A program made the translations under genes and the position numbers. Positions 2,741 to 54,240 of a stretch of DNA of 64,000 nucleotides are shown here, piece by piece. The stretch covers positions 15,673-79,672 of the forward strand of contig CAJJDN010000070.1 of the NCBI GenBank assembly GCA_905182985.1. The letters are read 5' to 3'. The stretch is from Paramecium sonneborni (Eukaryota > Ciliophora > Oligohymenophorea > Peniculida > Parameciidae). Within the stretch, counting starts at the first letter, position 1; the number at the start of each line of letters is the position of its first letter. The notes beneath the pieces are model-generated. The model saw nothing but the letters and a program-made list of their open reading frames with translations. It did no database searches and had not been told where the DNA came from.

Positions 2741-5700
2741 TCATTCAATATATGAATTATTCTATTCATCAACTTCTAAAAATTACCCTTCAAATTCTTG
2801 GGGCTTTTAATGAAGTTCTATTAAAACTTCTTCTTCTATTTACTAAATTGGTACTTAAAATTCTTGTTATTCAAAAGTATGTTTATTCATGTTGTCAACT
2901 TAAATTATATTTACTTAAGGCTATGAAAGATCGAATAAATTCTAAGGATCATTTTAAAATAAGTCTTTCAAACTATTTTATTTTAAGTTGAGATTTTCAA
3001 TTTACAAAGTATTATTGTTTTTTGTATTTTTTTAAGGATTATTAATTATTTTATCTTCGTCTGCTACAGTTCCAAATTCAAATATTTCTTCATAATCTTA
3101 TTAATTATCTAATTCAATTTATGGTTGTTCAACTATTTAAACTATTTTAATTTCTGGTTCTTAAAGTTCCAGTAAATCATCTGTTTAATTTTATTATTTA
3201 TTTTATATTAAATCTTAGTTTTCGTCTTCTTGTTATTCATTTCTTAATTCAAACATTTCTTCATTATCTTATTAATTATCCAATTCAATTTATGGTTGTT
3301 CAACTATTTAAACTATTTTAATTTCTGGTTCTTAAAGTTCCAGTAAATTATCTGTTTCATTTTATTAATTATTTTATTTTTAATCCTAGTTTTCGTCTTC
3401 TTGTTATTCATTTCTTAATTCAAATATTTCTTCATTATCTTATTAATTATCTAATTCAATTTATGGTTGTTCAACTATTTAAACTATTTTAATTTCTGGT
3501 TCTTAAAGTTCAAGTAAATTATCTGTTTCATTTTATTAATTATTTTATTTTTAATCCTAGTTTTCGTCTTCTTGTTATTCATTTCTTAATTCAAATATTT
3601 CTTCATTATCTTATTAATTATCTAATTCAATTTATGGTTGTTCAACTATTTAAACTATTTTAATTTCTGGTTCTTAAAGTTCAAGTAAATTATCTGTTTC
3701 ATTTTATTAATTATTTTATTTTTAATCCTAGTTTTCGTCTTCTTGTTATTCATTTCTTAATTCAAATATTTCTTCATTATCTTATTAATTATCTAATTCA
3801 ATTTATGGTTGTTCAACTATTTAAACTATTTTAATTTCTGGTTCTTAAAGTTCAAGTAAATTATCTGTTTCATTTTATTAATTATTTTATTTTTAATCCT
3901 AGTTTTCGTCTTCTTGTTATTCATTTCTTAATTCAAATATTTCTTCATTATCTTATTAATTATCTAATTCAATTTATGGTTGTTCAACTATTTAAACTAT
4001 TTTAATTTCTGGTTCTTAAAGTTCAAGTAAATTATCTGTTTCATTTTATTAATTATTTTATTTTTAATCCTAGTTTTCGTCTTCTTGTTATTCATTTCTT
4101 AATTCAAATATTTCTTCATTATCTTATTAATTATCTAATTCAATTTATGGTTGTTCAACTATTTAAACTATTTTAATTTCTGGTTCTTAAAGTTCAAGTA
4201 AATTATCTGTTTCATTTTATTAATTATTTTATTTTTAATCCTAGTTTTCGTCTTCTTGTTATTCATTTCTTAATTCAAATATTTCTTCATTATCTTATTA
4301 ATTATCTAATTCAATTTATGGTTGTTCAACTATTTAAACTATTTTAATTTCTGGTTCTTAAAGTTCAAGTAAATTATCTGTTTCATTTTATTAATTATTT
4401 TATTTTTAATCCTAGTTTTCGTCTTCTTGTTATTCATTTCTTAATTCAAATATTTCTTCATTATCTTATTAATTATCTAATTCAATTTATGGTTGTTCAA
4501 CTATTTAAACTATTTTAATTTCTGGTTCTTAAAGTTCAAGTAAATCATTTGTTTAATTTTATTATTTATTTTATTTTAAATCCTAGTTTTCGTCTTCTTT
4601 TTATGTATTTTATAATTCAAGAATTTCTTAGTTTTTGTGTTGATTATCCTCCTCTTTTTGGTCGACCTCTTTTTTTAAAATTCTATTTATTTAAGTCTCT
4701 TGCGCTTTTTCTTATTCATCTCCGCTGTTATCATTAAGATCTTCTTAAAAATCTTCAAATGATTATGAATATTCTTCTTCTTAATGATTTTCAACTTCAT
4801 CAACCTATCGATGTGCACTTTTACTTAAATTTCCACTATATATTTCATTAAATGGTGCTTTGATTGAATTATCAGTTTCTTTCTGAGATATTAATTAAAT
4901 TTTTTAAATTTAGTTCTCATATTTTTCTTTTTATTGATGTGCTTCATAATTTATATTTTTTTATTCTAATTATTGTATTTTTAATTTTTAATCTTCTATT
5001 TCTTCTTTCAATAATTTTATTTAAAATTTAAGCTAATAACTATCATACATTATTTATTCGTTCTATGGTATTTACTATTCTTGAATGTTAATTTAATCAT
5101 TATTTATTGTTAATTCTAAACTTTAAATAATTTTTTATTTATCTCTTAAATCAATAGTCAACTCCTTTTAATAATTATATAGATCTTCTATCTATTTTTT
5201 GGATTCATCTAATTATTCTTTCAATTCAAATGACACTTATTTCAATTTATTTATTTCTTCATCTTTTTCTTAAGCTCTTTTTGCATAATCATCTTTTATA
5301 ATTAACATTTCTTCCATCATAATTTTTAATTACTCGTTATTTTGTTTCTAATGAAAAATTTCTTATTCTAATTTGTCTATTTCATCAGCATCTTCATTAA
5401 TTTATGAATTGAGTTAATTTTCTAAATCCAAATTTTTTTACTTTAACAAATCATTTTCAATAATTAATCCTTGTTAATCAAAGCCTTCTTCTTATGATTC
5501 CAAAATCTATTCTAATTCTTAGATTCTTTCTAATTATTCTTAAATTTTAGACGAATAAAAATCATTAAGTTATTTACTATTGATTTTTACAGATTCAATA
5601 TCTTTATTTAGTTATTAATTTTTATACTCTAAAATTTCATTTTATGATTATAACAAAGCGATTAATTTACCTTATTCATTTATATTATTTTAATACTCTT

Positions 5701-7855
5701 AACATTTGAAATTTAGATTTTATACTTAATCATTAAAATTTTTGAAGTGAGTATTTAAACTATCTAATTTTTATTATGATATTTTCAAATGACTAATTAA
5801 TTCTTCATTTTAATCTTTTATATTTTTTATTTCAATTAATTACTCATTGGCTGATTCTTCTAGTTCTCCTATTCTTTCTTATAATTTATTTCTCTATTAA
5901 TAGAGTTTTGCATTTTCATTTTCTAATTGAGTAAAGTTAGATAGCTTTTCAGCATCTTTCTTTTAAATTTCTTTTAAATGATGCTCAAAGTTGCTTTTTA
6001 TTTAATATTTTTCTTTTTCTAAAGCATTAATTTTAATTAAATTCTCTTCATGTATCTTAGTCAATTATTCAACCTCATCCTAAGATTTTTGCAGTTCTTC
6101 CACAATCTCTTAATTTTATGTTTATAAATTTGATAATTCATTTTTTAATTAATTATTTTGTATTTAATACTCTTTATTTTCTGTTTTTTACTATGTTATT
6201 ATTTAATCAAAATTTTTTGAATCTTAATTCTATTTTAATAATAATTCCTATTAGTAAAGTATTTCCGCATCCTTTTCTTTATTAATCAAATGTAGTTTTT
6301 CTATTTATTTGGTTAGTTCTTAGTTACTTAATTCTAATTTATTTAGTTAGTAATTTTAATTTTAAAATATTTATTTATTTTATCTTAATTAATCGATTTC
6401 TTCTTCTAATTGTTTTATTATTTAGTTCTTGTTTTCAAGATTTTTGAATAGTTCTTCTTATTATTATTATAATTCTTAATTATTTTTCTTCAAAATTATA
6501 AGTTCTTCAGTAAGTTCTTCTTCCTAATTCTAAAATTTTGCATTTTCTTCCTACAATTCACTTAATAATCTTGCATAATATTTTATATCTTATTCAAGTT
6601 ATGTTGTGTTAAGTTTATTCTAATTTTACACTTTTAATGAATTAATTTCTTCAGAAAATATCTTAATTTATTATTTTTAATCATGCATCTGCTGTTTCTA
6701 TTATTATATAATCATCTATAGATTTTCATTTTCCTTTTCTAATGAAGGGATTTTTTAAGAATCTTTCGCTAATTATTTTAATTTGGCTACCTCATCATCA
6801 AGTAAGCTTTTCTCTTAAACAAGTTAATTATTAAGATTTTCTAATTGTAGTAATTTTTCTTTATCTTATTAACTAGTCTTATTTCTAGATTCTACAATTT
6901 AATTCTACAAATTATTGATTTGTTTTTCTTTTGCTTATATTTGTAGTTGCAGATTTTAAATTTCTTGAATCTTTTATTATTCTATCTAATTTAGTAAATA
7001 TAAATATATACATAAGCATTTTTATTGATTTATTCATTCAGTTTAGAAGACGATTGTTGTAGATGTAATTTTAATTCATCCTTATTAGATTCCAATAGTT
7101 AAATTTTTTCTTTTAATTGTTTTGTTTCAGTTTCCCTTTCTTCTAATTTGTTCATTAATTCCTTATATAGTATTTATTTTTTACATTTAGTTCATTGTTT
7201 TTCTAAATAGTCATATTTTATAAATCAAGTGCTTTATATAAATTTTCTCTCTCATTATCAAATCTAATTTCAATAGATTCTATTTCTTTTTATTATTATT
7301 ATATTATTTCTTCATACTTCTTTCTCATTATACTCTGTTCTTATTAAGACTATCGAGATAATTGAGCTTATCTAAATTGATATTCCTTGAGATTTGCAAA
7401 GTATTTTTCTTTCCATTATGATAATTCTTTATTCAAAACTGATATTTCTTCTTTATAATTATCTTCTATTATTTAGATCTCATTAATTTCTAAAACGAAT
7501 TATTTTATTTGAGATTGCTAATATATAATTTCTTTCTCTCTTGCCTTAAGTTTTGCATCTTATGAATCAATTCTAAATTGTAAATCATCAATTTTCTTTT
7601 TTAGATGAGACACATCATTGTCTCTTGTAATAATAAAACTTCCACTTGTTTTAGTCGAAATTTCATAGGACTTATTGTTTGCTTCATATGGTTATCTAAT
7701 CATGATGATATCAAATACTTTGAACTTCCTCTTTTTATTGAATCACATCTAGAACGAATTTCATTGACTTTAGCTTTAGTTTCCCTTATCCCAACAATGA
7801 GATCTTAACAATTATTTTTCAAATTGCTTTCAAATAATAACTTCTTTCTATCCAT
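2741..7855 (-). CDS. Giant Gln/Glu-rich coiled-coil protein with 57-residue tandem repeats, 1680 aa
   Basis: Large structural-type protein read from ATG at 7855 to TGA at 2743-2741. Three introns (7696-7718, 7162-7184, 6986-7011; 23, 23 and 26 nt) restore one frame, and the exons sum to 1681 codons including the stop. After a short N-terminal region (MDRKKLLFESNLKNN) almost the whole protein is heptad-like, rich in Leu, Asn, Gln, Glu and Lys, as in golgin or centrosomal coiled coils. The C-terminal third holds nine near-identical 57-residue acidic repeats containing motifs such as EPEIKIVQIVEQPQIEL. The tail is Gln-rich and acidic. No catalytic domain was seen. It converges on the K+ channel gene, with only 53 bp between the two stop codons. 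Its exact role cannot be told from sequence alone. Confidence 0.8.
3049..4587. repeat. Tandem array of nine 171-bp units inside the coiled-coil gene
   Basis: Units begin at 3049, 3220, 3391, 3562, 3733, 3904, 4075, 4246 and 4417, with a constant spacing of 171 bp (57 codons, frame-preserving). A decayed tenth unit starts at 4588. The units from 3391 onward look identical or nearly so, while the outer units carry substitutions and the edges fade. This is the pattern expected of unequal exchange homogenising the middle of the array. On the minus strand each unit encodes an acidic, Gln-rich segment. Confidence 0.95.
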
Positions 7856-10292: not shown

Positions 10293-11470
10293 CACTCAAT
10301 CCAAATAGTATTTTATTTTTAATAGATAAGTCTAATGATTTCTATTTCATTTTTTCTTACAAAGACTTCAAATTTGGATTTAAATTTTCCAATTTCTTCA
10401 ACCAAAAATATTCAACATTTTATTTTACTTAATTTTCACAAACAATTCTTACATTTTTATAGATTATCTTAAACCATATGAACTAAATCTTGATGAATAT
10501 TTATGAAAAAGGATGAAATAATATTGGATAATCAAATAATATTATTTATACATTATAAATATTTGCCTTAATTGATTTTAATTATTTAAAAATATTTCAT
10601 ATGATGTAATAATTATCATATATTGAAAGTAAGTAAAATTAATACTAACTTAAATCAATATATTATTGATAGATGATATAGTAGGTCTTTAGGGCTATTA
10701 TAGAGTTCATTTAAATTATCTTTTTAACGTATTACTATAAAAAAAAAATAATTCAATAGATAAATATAATAATTAATCTTATTTAGAATATAATAAAATA
10801 ATAAATCATTTCTTTAATGCAAAATTAAAGCGCCTCTTTACAAATCAATGAATGTAAAAATAATGAGACGATATAAGGAACAAAATAATTTCGCTCTAAA
10901 AACAATTAAATAGATAATTAAAAAGAAAAAACATAGCCTGAATGTAAAAAAGATTCAGAAGGAACTAATTAAGGGAATGTATCAAGTTTAGTATAAATTA
11001 ATAGAGTAAGGCTATGTCGAAAAAAAGGAATGAAGAGTATGATGTGACTACTTGTATCAAGAATTTAGTGTGTTTATCTTTGAGCATAATTAATGAAGAA
11101 CTTTAATTTAATTGTTAATAACAGAATTAGAAAGAATAAATTTCTGAACAAAGTAAAGTTTTATAAAATAGTGATTAAAACGAGATAGAATCGTTTTAGT
11201 TACCTCCAACATCTTAATAAATTCCAACATAAAAATAAAAATCTCATAAAAAAGCAAAGAACAAAAAAAATAAAACAGATTCCTCATTAAAAATACCAAA
11301 AAATTAAACATTAACCCAAAAATAATAGGCATTGTAACCTTAAATTCCATAACAATCAAAAGAGAAATAACATAATTAACTATCTCCTTAAGAGCCTCAT
11401 AAATTAAAACAGTAAATAGTTTAGTAAAAGTAAAAAAAGTAGTCTAATGTAACTTAGATAGAAAATTGTG
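10293..11470. repeat. First copy of an apparently exact 1178-bp direct duplication (likely assembly artefact)
   Basis: Appears identical to 11472-12649 and is separated from it by a single N at 11471. The repeat starts and ends exactly at the N. It carries a truncated copy (from about 10848) of the start of the Trf4-like gene, which continues intact only in the second copy. See findings. Confidence 0.95.
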
Positions 11471-11471
11471 N

Positions 11472-12649
11472 CACTCAATCCAAATAGTATTTTATTTTTA
11501 ATAGATAAGTCTAATGATTTCTATTTCATTTTTTCTTACAAAGACTTCAAATTTGGATTTAAATTTTCCAATTTCTTCAACCAAAAATATTCAACATTTT
11601 ATTTTACTTAATTTTCACAAACAATTCTTACATTTTTATAGATTATCTTAAACCATATGAACTAAATCTTGATGAATATTTATGAAAAAGGATGAAATAA
11701 TATTGGATAATCAAATAATATTATTTATACATTATAAATATTTGCCTTAATTGATTTTAATTATTTAAAAATATTTCATATGATGTAATAATTATCATAT
11801 ATTGAAAGTAAGTAAAATTAATACTAACTTAAATCAATATATTATTGATAGATGATATAGTAGGTCTTTAGGGCTATTATAGAGTTCATTTAAATTATCT
11901 TTTTAACGTATTACTATAAAAAAAAAATAATTCAATAGATAAATATAATAATTAATCTTATTTAGAATATAATAAAATAATAAATCATTTCTTTAATGCA
12001 AAATTAAAGCGCCTCTTTACAAATCAATGAATGTAAAAATAATGAGACGATATAAGGAACAAAATAATTTCGCTCTAAAAACAATTAAATAGATAATTAA
12101 AAAGAAAAAACATAGCCTGAATGTAAAAAAGATTCAGAAGGAACTAATTAAGGGAATGTATCAAGTTTAGTATAAATTAATAGAGTAAGGCTATGTCGAA
12201 AAAAAGGAATGAAGAGTATGATGTGACTACTTGTATCAAGAATTTAGTGTGTTTATCTTTGAGCATAATTAATGAAGAACTTTAATTTAATTGTTAATAA
12301 CAGAATTAGAAAGAATAAATTTCTGAACAAAGTAAAGTTTTATAAAATAGTGATTAAAACGAGATAGAATCGTTTTAGTTACCTCCAACATCTTAATAAA
12401 TTCCAACATAAAAATAAAAATCTCATAAAAAAGCAAAGAACAAAAAAAATAAAACAGATTCCTCATTAAAAATACCAAAAAATTAAACATTAACCCAAAA
12501 ATAATAGGCATTGTAACCTTAAATTCCATAACAATCAAAAGAGAAATAACATAATTAACTATCTCCTTAAGAGCCTCATAAATTAAAACAGTAAATAGTT
12601 TAGTAAAAGTAAAAAAAGTAGTCTAATGTAACTTAGATAGAAAATTGTG
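11472..12649. repeat. Second copy of the 1178-bp direct duplication
   Basis: Continues without a break into unique sequence at 12650. This copy therefore holds the usable 5' part of the nucleotidyltransferase gene. It matches 10293-11470 over its full length as far as can be read by eye. Confidence 0.95.
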
Positions 12650-14025: not shown

Positions 14026-14479
14026 TTATATTGTGACTTATATTTTATAATTTTAATCAATATTTATCGAAAGCTTTATGAGATTTTGAGTAAGAAACAC
14101 TTGTATTTGAACTATCAAATTTATAAGTGCAAGATATTTTGTTTATCTTACTATAATCCTTCATTTAACAATCAACCTTTTCCAATTACATGTTCTAAAT
14201 AATGAAGAATTAGATCTGATTTCTTAAATGTTTTTTATTATATCATCAATTAAACAGTTCTTAATATATATTTAAATTTAAGCATAGCCAAGAAATTTAT
14301 AATATATTATAAAAATTTAAATCTAACTTTTCTCTTTTAACTTTTAGATCTATTGATTTGCTAAATAAATACTTTGAGATTGATTATTGATCCTATTACT
14401 ATTGCTATCAATTTTTAAATAAAATAATAGTTCAATAATTACTTCGTCATTTATTTTAATTAAATATTTTTATCATATA
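14026..14479. other. Intergenic region with an imperfect hairpin
   Basis: No gene was seen. At 14098-14129 the sequence forms an imperfect inverted repeat: the outer arms CACTT/AAGTG and inner arms ATTTGA/TCAAAT pair, with a small internal loop. It could help end transcription of the nucleotidyltransferase gene or be incidental in AT-rich DNA. Confidence 0.4.
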
Positions 14480-16191
14480 ATGATTGAGAAATAACCAATA
14501 ATATCACTTTGTGAATCTATTGTATCAGAATAAAATCTTCTTTCATCATAATTATCTAGTACAGATAAAAAAGGAATTAGTCGATTTTCATTCATCAAAT
14601 GTGAATTAGAAGATAAATAAAATTATGCATTGAATAATAGAAATAGGATAAAACAATAACTCAAAGGTATAATATTTGGTATGAAAATAGGCAGATTATA
14701 ATTAATAATTAAAAAACCATCTTATGATGAAAGGAATTCATTGGAAGAACTAAATGAATTAAGCAAAAAATTAGATGTTGATTTTAGTGATATTGATTCA
14801 TAGAGCATTTGTGCTGATATTAAAAAATTTGAAGAAGAATATGAAATGATGGAAATTTTAGGTGAAGGTTGTTTAGGATTAGTTAAAAGAATTGTAAATA
14901 AAAAAACATAAGAAGAATTTGCAGTTAAAATAGTATAGACTTAGGATGATGAAATTATTAGAAATGTAAGTTTCATTAATATTATATTTAAGATGATAAT
15001 TGAATTTAAATCACTATAAAAGTTAAATCATGATAATATTGTGAAAGTTCATAAATTATATATAGATTTTTACAATGGATTTTAATCTGAAAGTAAAGCA
15101 TATGCTGTAATGGAATTAATTAAAGGAAAAGAAATGTTTGAAGTTATTAATGAATTAGGTCATTATTCTGAAAATGTTGCTAAGGAATTATTCAAATAAT
15201 TATTAAGTGCCATAGAATATATGCATAGAAATGGAATTTGTCATAGAGATTTGAAACCAAATAATATCTTGTGTGTTTAAAGTATTTTTTATTATTTATT
15301 AGATAAAAATTAGATTAAAGTAACTGACTTTAATGTTAGTAAATTTAGTGATTCTTATAAAGAATTTGGAGATTTAAAAGAGATAGAAAAAATTGAAATG
15401 TGGACATATACTGGAACTGTCGCTTTTTCTGCTCCAGAAATATTTACAGGAGAAGGTTACAAGTATATTTATATTATATATAAATATAAAGTTAAATGGT
15501 TGATATGTGGAGTGCCGGTTGTATTTTATATTCAATGTTATCAGGATAATTGCCATTTATATCAGAATAGTAAATTAAATTATATTTTAGTTTAAATGAT
15601 TTGATAGAATAGATTAAGGAAGCTTAAATTTAATTTCCAGATAATTTATTTAATTAAATTTCTAAAGAAGCTAAAGATCTTGTTTCATAATTATTACAAA
15701 AGGATTCAACATAAAGACCTTAACCAGATGATGCATTAAAACATGCATGGTTTTAGAATAGAATTAATGAATAAGAAATGTAAACGATGATAAATTTCGA
15801 AATATAAAAAAATATTCCTAGATTGACATCTAAATATTAAAGGAATAATTAAAAATCTAGAAGTATACTTTTACGATCTTCTTAAAATATATTATCATCA
15901 AAAATGGATAAATCAAATCTATAATAATCTGAGTTTACATGTAGTCCTGAAAAGCTTAGTAATAAAAAAAGCAACTTTTTTTCAAACTCTATTTTTGAAA
16001 GTTAATTACAAACTTAAATTGCAAATTTAAATTAAAATGATGCAACCTCTATAACAGATTTTGCAAATTTATAAATTATAAAAAATGCATCAAATTTTAG
16101 TGAGGACCTTGGTGATTTAGACTTTGTAAATCTAGAGTAATTTGTTGTATTCAAAAAAAAGGAAAATGAAAATGAAGAAATTTAATAGTGA
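14480..16191 (+). CDS. Serine/threonine protein kinase, CaMK-like, 537 aa
   Basis: Complete kinase domain in the middle of the protein. It shows the glycine loop LGEGCLGLVKR, the ATP lysine in FAVKIV, catalytic loop HRDLKPNN, metal Asp in VTDFNVSKF, TGTVAFSAPE (subdomain VIII), VDMWSAGCILY (IX) and RPQPDDALKHAWF (XI). The metal-binding motif is DFN rather than DFG. The N terminus (about 120 residues) and the Ser/Asn/Gln-rich C terminus are non-catalytic, and no EF hand or second domain was seen. Four introns are used (14966-14992, 15282-15302, 15463-15491, 15570-15590). Only the 29-nt one changes frame; the three others, divisible by three, are inferred from GTA...(T/A)AG ends and could be retained. 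It lies 42 bp upstream of the ubiquitin/ART gene on the same strand. Confidence 0.85.
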
Positions 16192-16233
16192 TTATTATAA
16201 TTTATAAAATTTAACTTTATTTTTTAATAGAAA

Positions 16234-18375
16234 ATGAATCCATTTAGTTAATTTGAAAAATCAGATGAAGATTATGAAATTCCTCCTTTTATAAATTAAA
16301 TAAAATTTAATGAATTAATTAAATAAGAAAACTATTAAGATGCAAAAATTCAACAATTTGACAACTTTATCAATAATGATATTTCAATCATACTTAATTT
16401 AGAATATTTAGGAATTCAAAATTTAAATGAAAGAGTTTTGATTATAAAAGAAAATGATAGAATTTTAGATGTTAAGAGTAAAATACAAAAATAAGTCTTA
16501 AAGGATTACAATGTTGAATTTGAACTTATTTTAAATGAATATATTTTATCAAGAAATAACTCAACTGTTAAGGAAGAGTAAATAAAAAACAATAGTATCA
16601 TCATGGTAATTATCAAAATTAAGAACTATCTCCCAATTCACATTTAAACAAATACTGGAAAAACGACAGTTATGGATTTTGATTATAGTTATCCTTAAAA
16701 GGTGATAAATTTAAAAGTAGCATATCAATATAAAGAAGGAATACCTCCAGATTAAACGCGTTTAATTTATAATGGTAAATAATTTGATGACAACTAATAT
16801 TTAATAAAATATTTAAGAAATTAAGATGTTGAGGAGAAATTCAAAATTCACTTACTTCTAAAATTGGCAGGAGGGATGTAATTATTTATAAAAATGCCGA
16901 CATAAAACTAAATTATTGTTACTTTAGAACTCTCCACATCAATTGATGAAATAAAAAAACTAATAGAAGATAGAACGGGGCTGTCGATATATGAACAGCG
17001 TTTAATATTCAAAGGAGTAGTATTATAAGAAGGTAAAACTCTTTCTTATTATAATATGAAAGCAGAAGATATGATACATGTAATATTGATTTCAAACGAT
17101 TAAGAGGATAACAACGTTTCCTTTTTTTTTGAATATCCTAATCGAAATATGTTACTATAATTAATGATTGATAAAAATTTGCAAGTTAGCTACTTAAAGG
17201 AAGAGTTAAGGTTATAAACAAAAGAAGATTTCTTTCTATTAATCTACAAAAATTAAGTTGTAGATGAAAGTTGGGATTCTTAATTAATTAAAATTTTTGA
17301 ACCAGATTCAACTTTTATTGTTGTGAATTAAGATTGGGAATATAAAGGAATTTAATTAACTATGAATCTTTCTGATTTAACCATTTAAGGAATCAAAGAT
17401 TTACAAAAAAGTCTTAATTTTTTACCAAGTCAGTTATAATTGAATCAATTCATAACTTAATGTATGGAAATTATTCCTCATAAAAAGGAGGGATTAGATA
17501 TATATTAAAAATGTCCTATAGAAAATATTCTTGCTATTAAAATATGGACTAGTAATCTAGTTTATAGATAAATTAATATTGATTTATAAAATGGGTTTTA
17601 TGATAAATGGAAAGTTTTTTTAAAAACTTTATTAGCTGGTCTTAAACATTGTCCTTATTTTTGTGGTACAGGATATAGAGGAATTAAAAATTATAAGAAC
17701 TTGGAGCAATATTAATAAGGAAAATAATTATAATGGTGTTAGGTGTCTGGTCTTTCTAAACTTGAAGAAATAGCAAATAAATTTACAAATACGGAAGGAA
17801 CATTTTTTGAAGTAAAATTACTTACTGCTAAAGATATATCAAGTATTTCATAATTCCCAGATGAAGAAGAAGTATTATTACAACCATTCACATGCTTCAT
17901 GGTTGAACGTACATAGGTGAATCACAATAGTCCCTTAATAATTAAATTAAAAGAAATTCCATATCCTAAATCAATCGATAATGTCATTCTTTGGGTAGAT
18001 GATAACCCAAAAAATAACCATATTTTTATTTAGGATTTAGAATTAGAAAATCCAGAAATATCAATTATTTATTGTCTTTCAACTGCAGAAGCAGTAAATA
18101 TTATTAATTTTTATCGAGTTATTGTTACAAAAGTAATAAAATAATTTAGAGTTGTGACAGATATGGTTAGACTTGAAAATAATAAAATGAATTATTATGC
18201 TGGAATAGATCTTATTGAAATACTTTATAAGTAGTTTTAATTTTAAAATTAAATTTTAGTTTATTGTTCAGATGAAAAAAACGCTTAAAAGAATTTAATT
18301 TAAAGAGGTGTACAAGGTAATTATTAAGTAACCAATTCACCTTAGAAGCTAAAATAATTTATCAGATTTAAATGA
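16234..18375 (+). CDS. Ubiquitin-like repeats + mono-ADP-ribosyltransferase + receiver-like domain fusion, 713 aa
   Basis: A single intronless frame of 714 codons. Residues 1-123 look like a divergent ubiquitin-like fold. Residues about 135-214 are a clear ubiquitin relative (GIPPDQTRLIYNGKQ, ending LAGG), joined directly to a second one at Met215 (MQLFIKM, YEQRLIFKG), the GG-M junction of polyubiquitin. A fourth, divergent one spans about 290-385. Residues about 430-560 resemble an Arg/Ser/Glu-class ADP-ribosyltransferase: Arg482 in GTGYRGI, a Ser motif in VSGLSKLEE, and the ExE motif Glu544/Glu546 in DEEEVLLQPF. Residues about 585-713 resemble a response-regulator receiver: VILWVDDNPKNN (Asp589/590), VVTDM, ILVYCS, with no obvious conserved Lys. 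This suggests NAD-dependent modification, possibly of ubiquitin or attached proteins. The function is inferred, not shown. Confidence 0.8.
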
Positions 18376-37529: not shown

Positions 37530-37828
37530 TCATTGCAATTCACTATCTGATAGGTCTGAATCATTTCCAGAAAATGCTTCCAATTTTTTATTGATATCTT
37601 GCATCATATCAATACTTTGATTAAAAGAATTTCTACATTCTTCTATTGAAACTCTATTTGAAGTTTTATTTTAACTATTTTTGCTCTCTGTAAATGAGCA
37701 ACTCACTAAATCTAATTTGTTATCTATCATATAAATTATTAAACTATACTCTTATCTTCTTCATTCATAGCTGCTTGCTCTTTTTGCTCTTCAATAAGTT
37801 ACTGATTTCTAGACTATAAACAACCCAT
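37530..37828 (-). CDS. Small acylated protein MGC-type, 90 aa
   Basis: Begins MGCLQSRNQQLIEEQKEQ, a good N-myristoylation/palmitoylation start (Gly2, Cys3). The rest is polar and ends KLEAFSGNDSDLSDSELQ, with acidic serine clusters that look like CK2 sites. One 26-nt intron (37724-37749) gives 91 codons including TGA 37532-37530. No domain was recognised; a peripheral membrane adaptor is possible. Its first exon and most of the second are present again at 38785-39055 because of the assembly duplication. Confidence 0.65.
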
Positions 37829-38352
37829 TAAATTTAAATATATTTATTCTAACATTTCGTTAATATTTCATAAATATCGCATCTAATCTATCCTCTTTAT
37901 ACTCTAAATATGAACATTTCGCATTTACCAAATAGTTTTTCTATTCATAAATTAAATAATATTACACAATTGTAAGTAGTCCAAAAAAATGCATCCATAA
38001 GGGTATGATCAAATACACTATATGTAATAATTTTAATCGTACCTTCACATCATGTTCCATCATCTCATTAACAGGAATATATTAAAAAAAAACAAAGTTA
38101 TCAAAGGATGAATAAGTAGTATAAATTCAACTAAATTTAATGCTATATTAAGGCAGTTATCTCTTCAAGTGGATATGTTGCACATTATCTTGAAACAGTA
38201 GGTTCTCTAAATAAATGATGCACACTATGGAAATTTTTATAGAGAAAATTAAAATGAAATATTCTATGGACCCAATATCCCAGAACTATTTAAATAATTT
38301 TTTACACTTTCTGGTTGTCCAAATAGACAAAAAAATAATAATTCGATATCCA
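37558..38352. repeat. First copy of an apparently exact 795-bp duplication flanking the N gap
   Basis: Appears identical to 38785-39579. This copy ends exactly where the 432-base N run starts, and the other copy starts exactly where it ends. It contains most of the MGC-protein gene. Probably the same genomic segment represented twice. Confidence 0.95.
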
Positions 38353-38784
38353 NNNNNNNNNNNNNNNNNNNNNNNNNNNNNNNNNNNNNNNNNNNNNNNN
38401 NNNNNNNNNNNNNNNNNNNNNNNNNNNNNNNNNNNNNNNNNNNNNNNNNNNNNNNNNNNNNNNNNNNNNNNNNNNNNNNNNNNNNNNNNNNNNNNNNNNN
38501 NNNNNNNNNNNNNNNNNNNNNNNNNNNNNNNNNNNNNNNNNNNNNNNNNNNNNNNNNNNNNNNNNNNNNNNNNNNNNNNNNNNNNNNNNNNNNNNNNNNN
38601 NNNNNNNNNNNNNNNNNNNNNNNNNNNNNNNNNNNNNNNNNNNNNNNNNNNNNNNNNNNNNNNNNNNNNNNNNNNNNNNNNNNNNNNNNNNNNNNNNNNN
38701 NNNNNNNNNNNNNNNNNNNNNNNNNNNNNNNNNNNNNNNNNNNNNNNNNNNNNNNNNNNNNNNNNNNNNNNNNNNNNNNNNNNN
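38353..38784. other. Assembly gap, 432 N
   Basis: A run of N only. Any ORF drawn across it is meaningless. Because the flanks are identical, the true gap length may be zero or negative (overlap). Confidence 1.
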
Positions 38785-39579
38785 GAATCATTTCCAGAAA
38801 ATGCTTCCAATTTTTTATTGATATCTTGCATCATATCAATACTTTGATTAAAAGAATTTCTACATTCTTCTATTGAAACTCTATTTGAAGTTTTATTTTA
38901 ACTATTTTTGCTCTCTGTAAATGAGCAACTCACTAAATCTAATTTGTTATCTATCATATAAATTATTAAACTATACTCTTATCTTCTTCATTCATAGCTG
39001 CTTGCTCTTTTTGCTCTTCAATAAGTTACTGATTTCTAGACTATAAACAACCCATTAAATTTAAATATATTTATTCTAACATTTCGTTAATATTTCATAA
39101 ATATCGCATCTAATCTATCCTCTTTATACTCTAAATATGAACATTTCGCATTTACCAAATAGTTTTTCTATTCATAAATTAAATAATATTACACAATTGT
39201 AAGTAGTCCAAAAAAATGCATCCATAAGGGTATGATCAAATACACTATATGTAATAATTTTAATCGTACCTTCACATCATGTTCCATCATCTCATTAACA
39301 GGAATATATTAAAAAAAAACAAAGTTATCAAAGGATGAATAAGTAGTATAAATTCAACTAAATTTAATGCTATATTAAGGCAGTTATCTCTTCAAGTGGA
39401 TATGTTGCACATTATCTTGAAACAGTAGGTTCTCTAAATAAATGATGCACACTATGGAAATTTTTATAGAGAAAATTAAAATGAAATATTCTATGGACCC
39501 AATATCCCAGAACTATTTAAATAATTTTTTACACTTTCTGGTTGTCCAAATAGACAAAAAAATAATAATTCGATATCCA
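38785..39579. repeat. Second copy of the 795-bp duplication
   Basis: Matches 37558-38352. It carries a truncated copy of the MGC-protein gene (minus strand, ATG at 39055, lacking the last codons, which fall in the gap). It continues into unique DNA at 39580. Confidence 0.95.
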
Positions 39580-42803: not shown

Positions 42804-43475
42804 ATGTCTAAAGACATTTTCGATATTCCAATTTGATCTGCATTTTTGGTTTATAGAGAATTACTTATTAATTACCTATTGTTTTAGCTGAAAATCAAGA
42901 AATCTTTTCAAGTGGAGGAATGCTTTCATCACTAACTTTTGAATGAGCTTAAATTAATACACTGAATAAAAAAACTTGCTTAAGTACTTCAAAAGCAGTA
43001 AGTTAACAAAGATTAACAAATAATCAAAAATATTTCTATAGAATATTTAAACGAGTAGCCAATTAGAGCCAAATATATTCAATACCTTAAATTTTGTATC
43101 CTAATACTTGATCATCATTTTTTTTAAATAGGAGTTTGCATTCAAGAAAAAAATAACTCATATCTATAGATATCTCTATTTGTTATTTTTAAATTTCCTT
43201 CTAAATTGTAGGCATTAGAAATATTAGTTTAAAATATTGGTTTGCTTGTAGATATGGAAATTACAGTTATTTTGCTATTCAGTCTATTTGGATTTCATTC
43301 ATTTTATGGAGTAAAAAATATCTCAACATTTAAAGTGATCAATAATATTAGAGAAATTTTAAAGTTTGATTCTGATTTTGTGTATCAGTTAATCTTAAAA
43401 TATCTATTTGATAAGGTTGATTATCAACAATATTAGGTTATTTCTGTAAATTTAATGTCAAACACAAATATTTGA
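42804..43475 (+). pseudogene. Probable degraded gene
   Basis: Coding-like pieces in shifting frames: MSKDIFDIPI followed by TGA, then LPIVLAENQEIFSSGGML, then TGA, then VSQQRLTNNQKYFYRIFKRV, and finally a longer open piece (VDMEITVILLFSLFGFHSFY to TGA 43473). No set of GTA...TAG introns was found that joins them, so decay is more likely than an intact gene. The parent family was not recognised. Confidence 0.3.
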
Positions 43476-44526
43476 ATGTTAATTATAAGCTTGATGAATA
43501 CTTTTATTTTAAAATAAATTCAAATTTATTTATTTTAAGATTTTTATATATATTTTCAAAACATCGATTGAAAATGTAATCTCTCTTTGTCAAGTGTTAA
43601 AAATGTTAACAAAGACCTGCTACGATTAAGTGTAACTAATGTAGATATGGTCAAACTTACAGATTATGCTATTCATGCGATTCTTAAATACATAATAGAA
43701 CAGGCCCTGTTGATCAATAACATAAAACAGAAATCATACCCTATTAAGGTATAACATAAGAATAATCCAAACTTTAGAAATGTATTAGAAAAACCAAGTA
43801 AATGTGCCTGTTCCTTAAAAAAATGACTAAAGAAATTCATTCAAAAAAAATGATTACAAACCTTAACCTTAAGTTCCTACAAAGGAGTATTTAAACAATG
43901 AGTCTAGAAAACCTGATTACTCTAAAACCATTGATGTTAATAGAGTCAGCAATAAACATGATTATTTGGATAAAAAAATTGATAGTCATGATAAAAGAGC
44001 AGATTAACAATATCTCTCAAATGATAAAAGACCTTACTCTTCTAATTAAAAAATCACTTCTGATAATGATAGAAATAGTTAATAATTAATTAACTAATTA
44101 AAAGAGGAATAATAATAAACTGAAAAATTAAGAGCAGAATTATCATAAGCTAATTAAAAAGAGAGAGAAGCATAAAGAAGATTGTATTTTTATTTTAGTA
44201 TTTTAGATAAAAATTAGAATAAGAATTTGAACTCAAAATTAGAGAAGATAAATTAAAAATTTAACAATTAACTGATGAAAATAGAAATTTAAATACAAAA
44301 TTAAATTAAACAAATAAACATATACAAGAAGAAGTAAATAAAGTCAGAAATTAATATGAAGATTAGATAAATGAATTAGAATAAATTTTAAATGAAAAAA
44401 ATTAATAATTAGAAAGTATTGCTTAAGAATATAATTTGGTAACAATTTTTTATAAATTTATTAGGAAGAATTACAATAAACTCTTAATGAGTTACAATAA
44501 GAATCTTCAATGAAAGATTAAATAAT
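43384..44526. repeat. First copy of an apparently exact 1143-bp direct duplication (likely artefact)
   Basis: Appears identical to 44528-45670 and is separated by a single N at 44527. It includes a truncated copy of the B-box gene beginning at ATG 43574. Confidence 0.95.
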
Positions 44527-44527
44527 N

Positions 44528-45670
44528 ATCAGTTAATCTTAAAATATCTATTTGATAAGGTTGATTATCAACAATATTAGGTTATTTCTGTAAATTTAAT
44601 GTCAAACACAAATATTTGAATGTTAATTATAAGCTTGATGAATACTTTTATTTTAAAATAAATTCAAATTTATTTATTTTAAGATTTTTATATATATTTT
44701 CAAAACATCGATTGAAAATGTAATCTCTCTTTGTCAAGTGTTAAAAATGTTAACAAAGACCTGCTACGATTAAGTGTAACTAATGTAGATATGGTCAAAC
44801 TTACAGATTATGCTATTCATGCGATTCTTAAATACATAATAGAACAGGCCCTGTTGATCAATAACATAAAACAGAAATCATACCCTATTAAGGTATAACA
44901 TAAGAATAATCCAAACTTTAGAAATGTATTAGAAAAACCAAGTAAATGTGCCTGTTCCTTAAAAAAATGACTAAAGAAATTCATTCAAAAAAAATGATTA
45001 CAAACCTTAACCTTAAGTTCCTACAAAGGAGTATTTAAACAATGAGTCTAGAAAACCTGATTACTCTAAAACCATTGATGTTAATAGAGTCAGCAATAAA
45101 CATGATTATTTGGATAAAAAAATTGATAGTCATGATAAAAGAGCAGATTAACAATATCTCTCAAATGATAAAAGACCTTACTCTTCTAATTAAAAAATCA
45201 CTTCTGATAATGATAGAAATAGTTAATAATTAATTAACTAATTAAAAGAGGAATAATAATAAACTGAAAAATTAAGAGCAGAATTATCATAAGCTAATTA
45301 AAAAGAGAGAGAAGCATAAAGAAGATTGTATTTTTATTTTAGTATTTTAGATAAAAATTAGAATAAGAATTTGAACTCAAAATTAGAGAAGATAAATTAA
45401 AAATTTAACAATTAACTGATGAAAATAGAAATTTAAATACAAAATTAAATTAAACAAATAAACATATACAAGAAGAAGTAAATAAAGTCAGAAATTAATA
45501 TGAAGATTAGATAAATGAATTAGAATAAATTTTAAATGAAAAAAATTAATAATTAGAAAGTATTGCTTAAGAATATAATTTGGTAACAATTTTTTATAAA
45601 TTTATTAGGAAGAATTACAATAAACTCTTAATGAGTTACAATAAGAATCTTCAATGAAAGATTAAATAAT
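44528..45670. repeat. Second copy of the 1143-bp duplication
   Basis: Continues directly into the unique 3' part of the B-box gene at 45671, so this copy belongs to the complete gene model. Confidence 0.95.
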
Positions 45671-51439: not shown

Positions 51440-52176
51440 TCAACATTTACATTTTCCTTCATTTAAGTTTGCAGATTATTTCATAAGTTTTAATTAGGAT
51501 TGTTCTCCTCCTCTAAATCCAGTCTTTTATTTACAAAGGTCTAATTATATTAATTATGAAATTTAACCTATAAATAAAGTTTCAAAACATTGATTTACAT
51601 TTTCTGGTAAATGAGCTGATATTTCAAATATCTTCCATTTATTTTATTTAATAAATAATTTAATATCATTTTCTGATACTTATCTACAACTTGGATTTTT
51701 TTACACTAAATCTAATTTGTTTCCTATAATTATTATTTGAATATCTCCATCTCCATGATGTTTTAATTCTTATATCCAAAGTTATAATTTTTCAAGACTT
51801 GTTTTATTGGTTAAATCAAAAATTGCTAAGGCTCCAACTACTTTTCTAAAATGACTTTATTTGTCAATAATATATTTTCTACCTATTAGTAAGAGAACGA
51901 TATCTTTCTTGTCCAGCTTCCTATAATCATTCAGTACCTGTATCCCAAATTTGGGCTTTTATTCTTGATCCATCAGAAAGTGTGATAAATTTTGTTTCAA
52001 ATTCTACACCTATTGTTGGAGCAGTTTTCTTTGGTATCGTTCCCTTTAAATAATTTTGCCAAATACAAGTTTTGCCAACATCACATTCCCCTACTAAAGC
52101 AACTTTATTAGCAGTATTTAACTTATTTACTTTTAAAAGAATAATCACATTCTTCTTCTTTTATCTCTTTTTGCAT
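51440..52176 (-). CDS. Rab-family small GTPase, 219 aa
   Basis: Membrane-traffic GTPase. Motifs: P-loop VGECDVGKT, switch I Thr in APTIGVEF, switch II WDTAGQERYRSLT, guanine motif GNKLDL and EISAH in place of the usual SAK. The C terminus ends LNEGKCKC, a C-x-C geranylgeranylation signal of Rabs. Introns 52103-52130, 51917-51937 and 51855-51882 (28, 21 and 28 nt) are all needed and give 220 codons. Start ATG 52176 (MQKEIKEEECDYSF). The specific Rab class cannot be named by eye. A truncated copy (53068-53350) arises from the assembly duplication and should not be counted as a second gene. Confidence 0.9.
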
Positions 52177-53066
52177 AATTAAATAATTTAGTTTTTATTA
52201 TCAATTAAAAACAAAATAAATTTTTTTATAGAAATCAATAGTTGTATTCATTCTTTTTACTACTCTCATAAATAATTTATTTATTATATGTCATAAGAGA
52301 TTTCTCCAAAATAATAGAAAATTCTTTAAGAAGAATTATAAGAACAAATTAATTAGCCTTAAATTGAAGCATAAAATCATGAGGAATAATAATTGAAAGA
52401 GAATATTTAAGAAAAAGTAGATAATTAAGAATAGTAGGATAAGTAAATAAAAGCAGAATAATAAGTTGAATAAGATATAGAAGAGAAGAATAATAAATAA
52501 AAATAATAACAAACCTCTTCAATTCAAGAAAGTACTATTTAAAAAGAAACTTAATAAGAGAATACTTAAAATGAAAAAAAAGATCAAGAAAATTAAGTAA
52601 AAGATAATGAAGAAAAATAAGTATTAAATGAAAAAACTCCAGAAACAATTTCATCAAATTTGGATAATTTATTCTTAAAAGCAGATCATACTTTCCCAGT
52701 ACTTTTATTGATTAATTTTTAGATTGAAATAAAAGTATCTGATCCTATTCAAAAAGTAGGAAGTATTTCAAATTATGTAGTCTATACTATAAAAGGTAAA
52801 GATTGTTTTGGATAATTTGAAACATAAAGAAGATTTAATGATTTCTACATGATTAGAGAATTACTCTTAGCAAAATGGCCTGGATAATATATACCACCAA
52901 TTCCTGAGAAATCTGTAAATGCAGGTTCAGATATAATTTTAGAAAGGACAAGATTACTTAACATCTTTTGTATGAAAATGATGTAGATTAAACATCTTTA
53001 TTATTCTGAAGAATTTTATGATATATTTTTAAGATCAACTAATCAAGAGATTAGCAAAGTATTTTG
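51894..53066. repeat. First copy of an apparently exact 1173-bp direct duplication (likely artefact)
   Basis: Appears identical to 53068-54240 with a single N at 53067 between. It holds the 5' part of the Rab gene (complete through this copy) and a truncated PX gene starting at 52288. Confidence 0.95.
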
Positions 53067-53067
53067 N

Positions 53068-54240
53068 AGAACGATATCTTTCTTGTCCAGCTTCCTATAA
53101 TCATTCAGTACCTGTATCCCAAATTTGGGCTTTTATTCTTGATCCATCAGAAAGTGTGATAAATTTTGTTTCAAATTCTACACCTATTGTTGGAGCAGTT
53201 TTCTTTGGTATCGTTCCCTTTAAATAATTTTGCCAAATACAAGTTTTGCCAACATCACATTCCCCTACTAAAGCAACTTTATTAGCAGTATTTAACTTAT
53301 TTACTTTTAAAAGAATAATCACATTCTTCTTCTTTTATCTCTTTTTGCATAATTAAATAATTTAGTTTTTATTATCAATTAAAAACAAAATAAATTTTTT
53401 TATAGAAATCAATAGTTGTATTCATTCTTTTTACTACTCTCATAAATAATTTATTTATTATATGTCATAAGAGATTTCTCCAAAATAATAGAAAATTCTT
53501 TAAGAAGAATTATAAGAACAAATTAATTAGCCTTAAATTGAAGCATAAAATCATGAGGAATAATAATTGAAAGAGAATATTTAAGAAAAAGTAGATAATT
53601 AAGAATAGTAGGATAAGTAAATAAAAGCAGAATAATAAGTTGAATAAGATATAGAAGAGAAGAATAATAAATAAAAATAATAACAAACCTCTTCAATTCA
53701 AGAAAGTACTATTTAAAAAGAAACTTAATAAGAGAATACTTAAAATGAAAAAAAAGATCAAGAAAATTAAGTAAAAGATAATGAAGAAAAATAAGTATTA
53801 AATGAAAAAACTCCAGAAACAATTTCATCAAATTTGGATAATTTATTCTTAAAAGCAGATCATACTTTCCCAGTACTTTTATTGATTAATTTTTAGATTG
53901 AAATAAAAGTATCTGATCCTATTCAAAAAGTAGGAAGTATTTCAAATTATGTAGTCTATACTATAAAAGGTAAAGATTGTTTTGGATAATTTGAAACATA
54001 AAGAAGATTTAATGATTTCTACATGATTAGAGAATTACTCTTAGCAAAATGGCCTGGATAATATATACCACCAATTCCTGAGAAATCTGTAAATGCAGGT
54101 TCAGATATAATTTTAGAAAGGACAAGATTACTTAACATCTTTTGTATGAAAATGATGTAGATTAAACATCTTTATTATTCTGAAGAATTTTATGATATAT
54201 TTTTAAGATCAACTAATCAAGAGATTAGCAAAGTATTTTG
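53068..54240. repeat. Second copy of the 1173-bp duplication
   Basis: Holds a truncated Rab gene and the 5' part of the complete PX gene. It continues into unique sequence at 54241, inside the first PX-gene intron. Confidence 0.95.

Follow-up and report, generated by a model that had tools for sequence, protein, structure and literature searches.

A Hint-less relative of the ciliate BUBL genes joins ubiquitin-like repeats, an ADP-ribosyltransferase and a predicted pseudo-receiver in Paramecium sonneborni

A single Paramecium sonneborni gene (P0001) joins four ubiquitin-like modules, an ADP-ribosyltransferase (ART) with conserved active residues and a tail of receiver fold that lacks the receiver Lys and Thr/Ser. 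This three-part fusion, first proposed in an earlier note made from the DNA letters alone, is real and not an isolated oddity, as the gene belongs to the BUBL family of ciliates, of which it is a copy without the Hint (intein-like) domain. Its catalysis, substrate and regulation we infer, and the reading that we favour, with reasonable though not high confidence, is a Hint-less BUBL member whose four linear ubiquitin-like modules are not released, and whose pseudo-receiver gates an arginine mono-ADP-ribosyltransferase.

The gene and its place in the BUBL family

Translation with table 6 opens an intact 713-codon frame at 16234-18375 of the window, that is, the whole stretch of 64,000 nucleotides analysed, which is part of contig C70; searches of the organism's own genome covered the 91.5 Mb P. 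sonneborni assembly. The uninterrupted frame and the residue positions given for it earlier are both right, and a chance open frame was rejected as its explanation. The features are as follows.

16234..18375, + strand: whole coding frame P0001, 713 aa, code 6, TGA stop
16264..16305, + strand: N-terminal motif DEDYEIPPFINQIK, its Pro-Pro common to 8 of 11 aligned rows, counted by eye (alignment A1)
16351..16629, + strand: Ubl1, weak ubiquitin-like domain (PF00240 8.3e-5, under cut-off)
16630..16875, + strand: Ubl2, clear ubiquitin-like domain (PF00240 2.5e-10) ending KLAGG; Arg42 equivalent R176
16870..16878, + strand: Gly-Gly-Met junction, the exact Hint site (GG-C...CTxxH...HN-M) in 6 of 11 aligned members
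16876..17094, + strand: Ubl3, nearest to ubiquitin, without terminal GG; Arg42 equivalent R256
17116..17346, + strand: Ubl4 position, degenerate, placed only from the aligned relatives (Pfam matches P0002 at 9.7e-10 but not P0001)
17347..17964, + strand: ADP-ribosyltransferase domain with helical N-terminal part
17677..17679, + strand: Arg482, R of R-S-E, kept in 10 of 11
17755..17757, + strand: Ser508, S of R-S-E, kept in 11 of 11
17863..17871, + strand: Glu544-Glu545-Glu546 (ExE); E544 in 11 of 11, E546 in 10 of 11
17965..18372, + strand: predicted pseudo-receiver domain
17998..18003, + strand: Asp589-Asp590, acidic pair; D589 in 11 of 11, D590 in 10 of 11 (Glu in C1)
18160..18162, + strand: Asp643, at the phosphoacceptor Asp by alignment; nine of the 11 have Asp, C39 and C72 have Asn
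18265..18267, + strand: Cys678, at the receiver Thr/Ser position
18337..18339, + strand: Ser702, at the receiver Lys position (RcsC alignment with A3); column Lys in 3 of 11

The four ubiquitin-like units read from the letters are thus borne out, two over the PF00240 cut-off, one below it and one by alignment only.

Database searches found six relatives of P0001 (P0002, P0003 and P0004-P0007), including proteins of P. pentaurelia, P. sonneborni and Tetrahymena utriculariae in which the shared domains stand in the same order. The architecture that the earlier note had asked to be sought in other ciliates is therefore present in P. pentaurelia and T. utriculariae. Within its own genome, C18, C35, C39 (P0005), C72 and C1 also carry ART and tail. 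Our main alignment, A1, holds 11 sequences including P0001; the broken C71, the remnant C113, the first part of C72 and the C26 ART gene were left out, the last because it is without the other domains. C72 is represented by the gene's second part alone, since the first lies in another frame and the intron is not defined. Among these 11 members, picked for having ART and tail, Pfam matches ART in all, PF00240 in 10 and Hint in six. Where present, the Hint always reads GG-C...HN-Met and encloses a motif of CTxxH type, which is CTADH in C72. The own genome has three Pfam Hint matches, all in the BUBL family, that of C72 being under the curated cut-off. The C72 Hint matches solved T. thermophila BIL2 (6tmm, 6y75) at 4e-13, and these chains are named NAD(P)(+)--arginine ADP-ribosyltransferase.

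The association of polyubiquitin, Hint and ART is already in print; on BUBL proteins, the references of PMC8616854 include Dassa et al. 2004 and Chiarini et al. 2019 and 2021. The available text of PMC8616854 describes a T. thermophila polyubiquitin locus in which BIL2 is flanked by ubl4 and ubl5, and conjugation of ubl4 without ATP. P0001 shares with T. thermophila BUBL1 its ubiquitin-like repeats, the downstream ART and the site of the intein-like domain. However, it has no Hint and its GG-Met reads straight through at the point where six of the 11 members carry one. The remark that no intein-like domain is seen here therefore holds by Pfam, while the relation to BUBL is closer than had been supposed. 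With several linear ubiquitin-like domains, and with repeats, ART and tail that mark common descent with the Hint-bearing genes, but with no Hint after its GG, P0001 is a relative within the BUBL family and not a full BUBL. The self-splicing domain is thus missing from parts of this family.

In a midpoint-rooted tree, which does not fix the position of the P0001 branch, the Hint-less C1 is sister to the Hint-bearing C72 (100/99), P0006 is sister to P0002 (95/93), and C35, with a Hint remnant, falls among the Hint carriers (100/98). These placements of P0006, C1 and C35 beside Hint-bearing members point to repeated loss of the Hint, and P0001 itself is likely to have lost one. C71 (L034) is a duplicate of window block 13.5-20.5 kb at 73-92% identity, with a broken BUBL-like copy. 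Across its junction region, window 14142-17140 aligns to 2993 bases with no Hint-sized gap, so that the absence of the Hint predates the duplication.

Ubiquitin-like modules and the ADP-ribosyltransferase

The only GG of P0001 follows Ubl2 and is succeeded directly by Met, with Lys at position 72 and Ala at 74. Conjugatable polyubiquitin has repeats ending RLRGG, whereas here there is a lone KLAGG and Ubl3 has no GG at all. By eye, a further GG lies between Ubl4 and ART in nine of the 11 aligned rows, with YKG in P0001 and GV in C72. If relatives release their ART at this GG, the loss of the GG from P0001 would be in line with fixed, non-released modules. Because the lone GG runs into Met, Lys72 and Ala74 are present and the Ubl4-ART GG is lost, we suggest that the ubiquitin-like modules act in cis, in docking or localisation, rather than as released modifiers. 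The Ubl2-Ubl3 join, which lies beside a self-cleaving Hint in relatives, would here be fixed as a single linear peptide. It seems unlikely that deubiquitinases instead cut Ubl1-Ubl2 off at GG-Met to serve as a free modifier in the manner of polyubiquitin. The junction does resemble that of polyubiquitin, and the fold matches listed for the full model, which are dominated by ubiquitin, are headed by linear di- and tetra-ubiquitin. Against this, the repeat does not end RLRGG, and the Hint occupies the same junction in relatives, so that GG-Met may only mark the site of its loss.

The predicted structure of the ART matches XopAI/HopU1/ART2.2-type enzymes. Those folds belong to R-S-ExE enzymes, and P0001 carries the same residues on its ART fold (R482, S508 and E544-x-E546), but its domain, unlike theirs, shares a chain with ubiquitin-like modules and a pseudo-receiver. 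The arginine-type assignment made earlier is therefore upheld, and the loss of R, S and E from all orthologues, named at the time as grounds for abandoning it, is not seen, as each is kept in 10 or 11 of the 11 members, P0001 included. Such conservation argues for arginine mono-ADP-ribosylation, in which the ART would move ADP-ribose from NAD onto arginines of cellular proteins.

The earlier note went further and supposed that the enzyme could modify its own or released ubiquitin-like units at Arg42, in the manner of Legionella SidE. SidE-type ubiquitin ADP-ribosyltransferases combine an ART and a phosphodiesterase in a single protein. P0001 is broadly like SidE in that ART activity is linked with ubiquitin, but its ubiquitin is fused rather than a known substrate, and neither a SidE nor a phosphodiesterase family appears among its Pfam matches (E<=10). 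Neither this nor the type of ART fold supports a SidE-like system. Both clear repeats of P0001 do have the Arg42 equivalent (R176 and R256). At the Ubl2 position, however, Arg is found in only five of the seven rows with a residue there (C72 being aligned by its second part only), and at the Ubl3 position in four of 10. C39 of P. sonneborni keeps R-S-ExE intact, yet its residues at these sites are Asp and Gln, so self-modification cannot be the general purpose of these enzymes, and the arginines of P0001 may simply be ancestral ubiquitin residues. An NAD-dependent ubiquitin system in which the ART modifies Arg42, on its own repeats or on free ubiquitin, is accordingly doubtful. Ubiquitin repeats are abundant in the genome (74 PF00240 matches) and accompany the ART in 10 of 11 aligned members, but the C26 ART gene of the same genome has WWE and no ubiquitin match.

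The C-terminal pseudo-receiver and its prokaryotic relatives

PF00072 missed the tail when single sequences were used, and Pfam scans of the tail had no receiver family among the families listed. When a profile of the ciliate tails was compared on its own with solved structures, no match reached significance (the best of all at 0.076, the best to a receiver at 1.2), so a bacterial bridge was needed. A profile of the 11 tails reached response regulators of bacteria and archaea, with 61 proteins at E<=0.01, among them ciliate-like relatives. Profile-profile comparison of the tail with bacterial receivers (hhalign) gave an E of 2e-27, and the bacterial profile in turn matched solved receivers, the best at 4e-11. 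The HMM searches that the fusion called for have therefore recovered both folds, the receiver by way of the 11-tail profile. NCBIfam gave single-member matches only (best STM4014 at 6.3e-4; response regulators at 0.06 and 0.12). PADLOC gave AbiO in two of 11 tails (best 1.4e-4) and CARF, Csx1 and HTH_VI in one each. As no two of these agree, we judged them noise, AbiO least surely.

Alignments to 3a0r and RcsC, carried via A3, place Asp643 at the phosphoacceptor, Cys678 at the Thr/Ser and Ser702 at the Lys position. A canonical receiver has DD, D, T/S and K; P0001 has Cys and Ser at the last two. In the available text of PMC12632262 a pseudo-receiver is a receiver missing any of the five residues. 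By that definition the P0001 tail, a receiver by homology and fold in which Thr/Ser and Lys are missing, is a pseudo-receiver that keeps the acidic pair and Asp643. A structural model of ART plus tail reached pLDDT 92.1 and pTM 0.87, the relative placement of the two being based on pTM alone. The receiver-like domain of the earlier note is thus correct as to fold, but as it is a pseudo-receiver, signal input by a standard phosphorelay is less likely.

Outside ciliate-like sequences, the nearest relatives found for the tail are membrane-anchored WVDDNPKNN receivers of bacteria and archaea, the closest of which share with the tail the signature W-V-D-D-N-P, N, T, R-x-E, A-G, T-x-S. A genome scan for WVDDNP-type receivers gave 25 loci, one archaeal (Methanothrix). 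WVDDNPKNN receivers from Sorangium (P0037) and Methanothrix (P0039) have WVDDNP, N, T, R-x-E and A-G in common with the P0001 tail and are likewise without the receiver Lys, and in 13 aligned bacterial relatives the corresponding position is an invariant Ser. Unlike P0001, the bacterial proteins have, by eye, a hydrophobic stretch in their N-terminal part and another that is rich in Q and resembles a coiled coil. No ART was noticed by eye in the frames of 21 of the 25 loci. The tail profile scored 36.5-68.6 bits on 13 bacterial receivers and at most 3.7 on P. sonneborni receiver loci (16 scored, 15 once L078, in the wrong reading frame, is discounted), with a decoy maximum of 7.1, a contrast that is inflated by the choice of the bacterial set with the same profile. 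Transfer from prokaryotes would be the simplest source of the tail. Viral contigs gave 38 pattern matches, none of them a relative. Ten chosen neighbour proteins from seven of the 25 loci showed no common theme, two being without any match. At L055, L056, L057 and L063 the bacterial WVDDNP receiver lies, by eye, either behind a possible winged-helix and a hydrophobic stretch (Pseudoalteromonas) or, in L063, behind a kinase-like domain and a hydrophobic stretch. The ciliate ubiquitin/intein/ART genes thus have one more component, a pseudo-receiver related to the membrane-anchored receivers of bacteria. The passages of the literature covered, those of PMC8616854 among them, make no mention of a receiver tail on BUBL or ART proteins.

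Control of the ART by an ordinary histidine-kinase phosphorelay has little in its favour beyond the retained acidic pair and Asp643, a genome rich in kinases and receivers (at least 124 HisKA and at least 50 PF00072 matches) and Lys at the aligned position in three members. P0001 itself lacks both Thr/Ser and Lys, two of 11 members have Asn for Asp, the ciliate's own receivers examined barely register with the tail profile, and the bacterial relatives have Ser in place of Lys; we consider such a switch rather unlikely. With Asp643 in nine and Lys in three of the 11, members differ, and residual phosphorylation may occur in some. The position of a pseudo-receiver beside the ART suggests allosteric control other than phosphotransfer. 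Under our preferred reading, the pseudo-receiver, predicted to adjoin the ART, would gate it through binding of a metal, a ligand or a protein at the DD/D pocket. The available text of PMC12632262 calls pseudo-receiver activation unsolved. In a broader scheme, which we regard as improbable, ciliates would have an endogenous NAD-dependent ubiquitin signalling system. Here a bacterial-derived pseudo-receiver would gate an ART that modifies ubiquitin or ubiquitin-linked proteins, the ubiquitin being supplied by ATP-free self-splicing in Hint copies or as a fixed linear chain in P0001.

Other family copies and features of the window

There is only a slim chance that P0001 is a scaffold in decay or without catalytic activity. 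Decay is evident elsewhere in the family: in C71 the ART-holding stretch, between matches at window 17250 and 17987, is reduced to about 70 bases, C113 is a tail remnant only, C35 retains a Hint remnant, and P0006 has Cys for R482 and no GG after its ubiquitin, and is possibly an inactive ART. C18 has Asp for E546, and this and the R482 change suggest that some members may be inactive. P0001, in contrast, has an intact frame and every R-S-ExE residue, and the loss of the ART stretch from C71 indicates that the intact copy was kept at the P0001 locus. With Hint present or absent, receiver Asp or Asn, and ART intact or altered, the family offers a ready test set for enzyme function and pseudo-receiver control.

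In C35 (L037) the intein-like Hint domain is half lost, with only some 20 residues from its start remaining behind RLRGGGSG. A second set of six short fragments, P0012-P0017, also carries the tail; P0016 has an ART match (2.9e-11) beside it, P0012, P0013 and P0017 have none, and the four fragments scanned have no ubiquitin match. L030 (G000:C26:147179-150691, minus strand) is a second type of ART gene, with WWE and PF01129 and without a ubiquitin match.

That the fusion is an artefact of assembly or gene modelling can be dismissed with near certainty. The window does hold four assembly joins with duplicated flanks, but none lies inside 16234-18375, and the identical domain order at other loci and in other species already refutes it.

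Four exact direct duplications, of 795-1178 bp per copy, lie at window 10293-12649, 37558-39579, 43384-45670 and 51894-54240, the pairs being parted by a single N in three cases and by 432 N in one. They are most probably the ends of contigs left unmerged where the assembly was joined, and not real tandem genes. Window 3049-4716 holds a 171-bp tandem array (nine overlapping 300-nt matches, eight of them 78-93% identical to the first), which sits in a long code-6 frame on the minus strand, 2741-6715, with 215 reassigned Gln codons.
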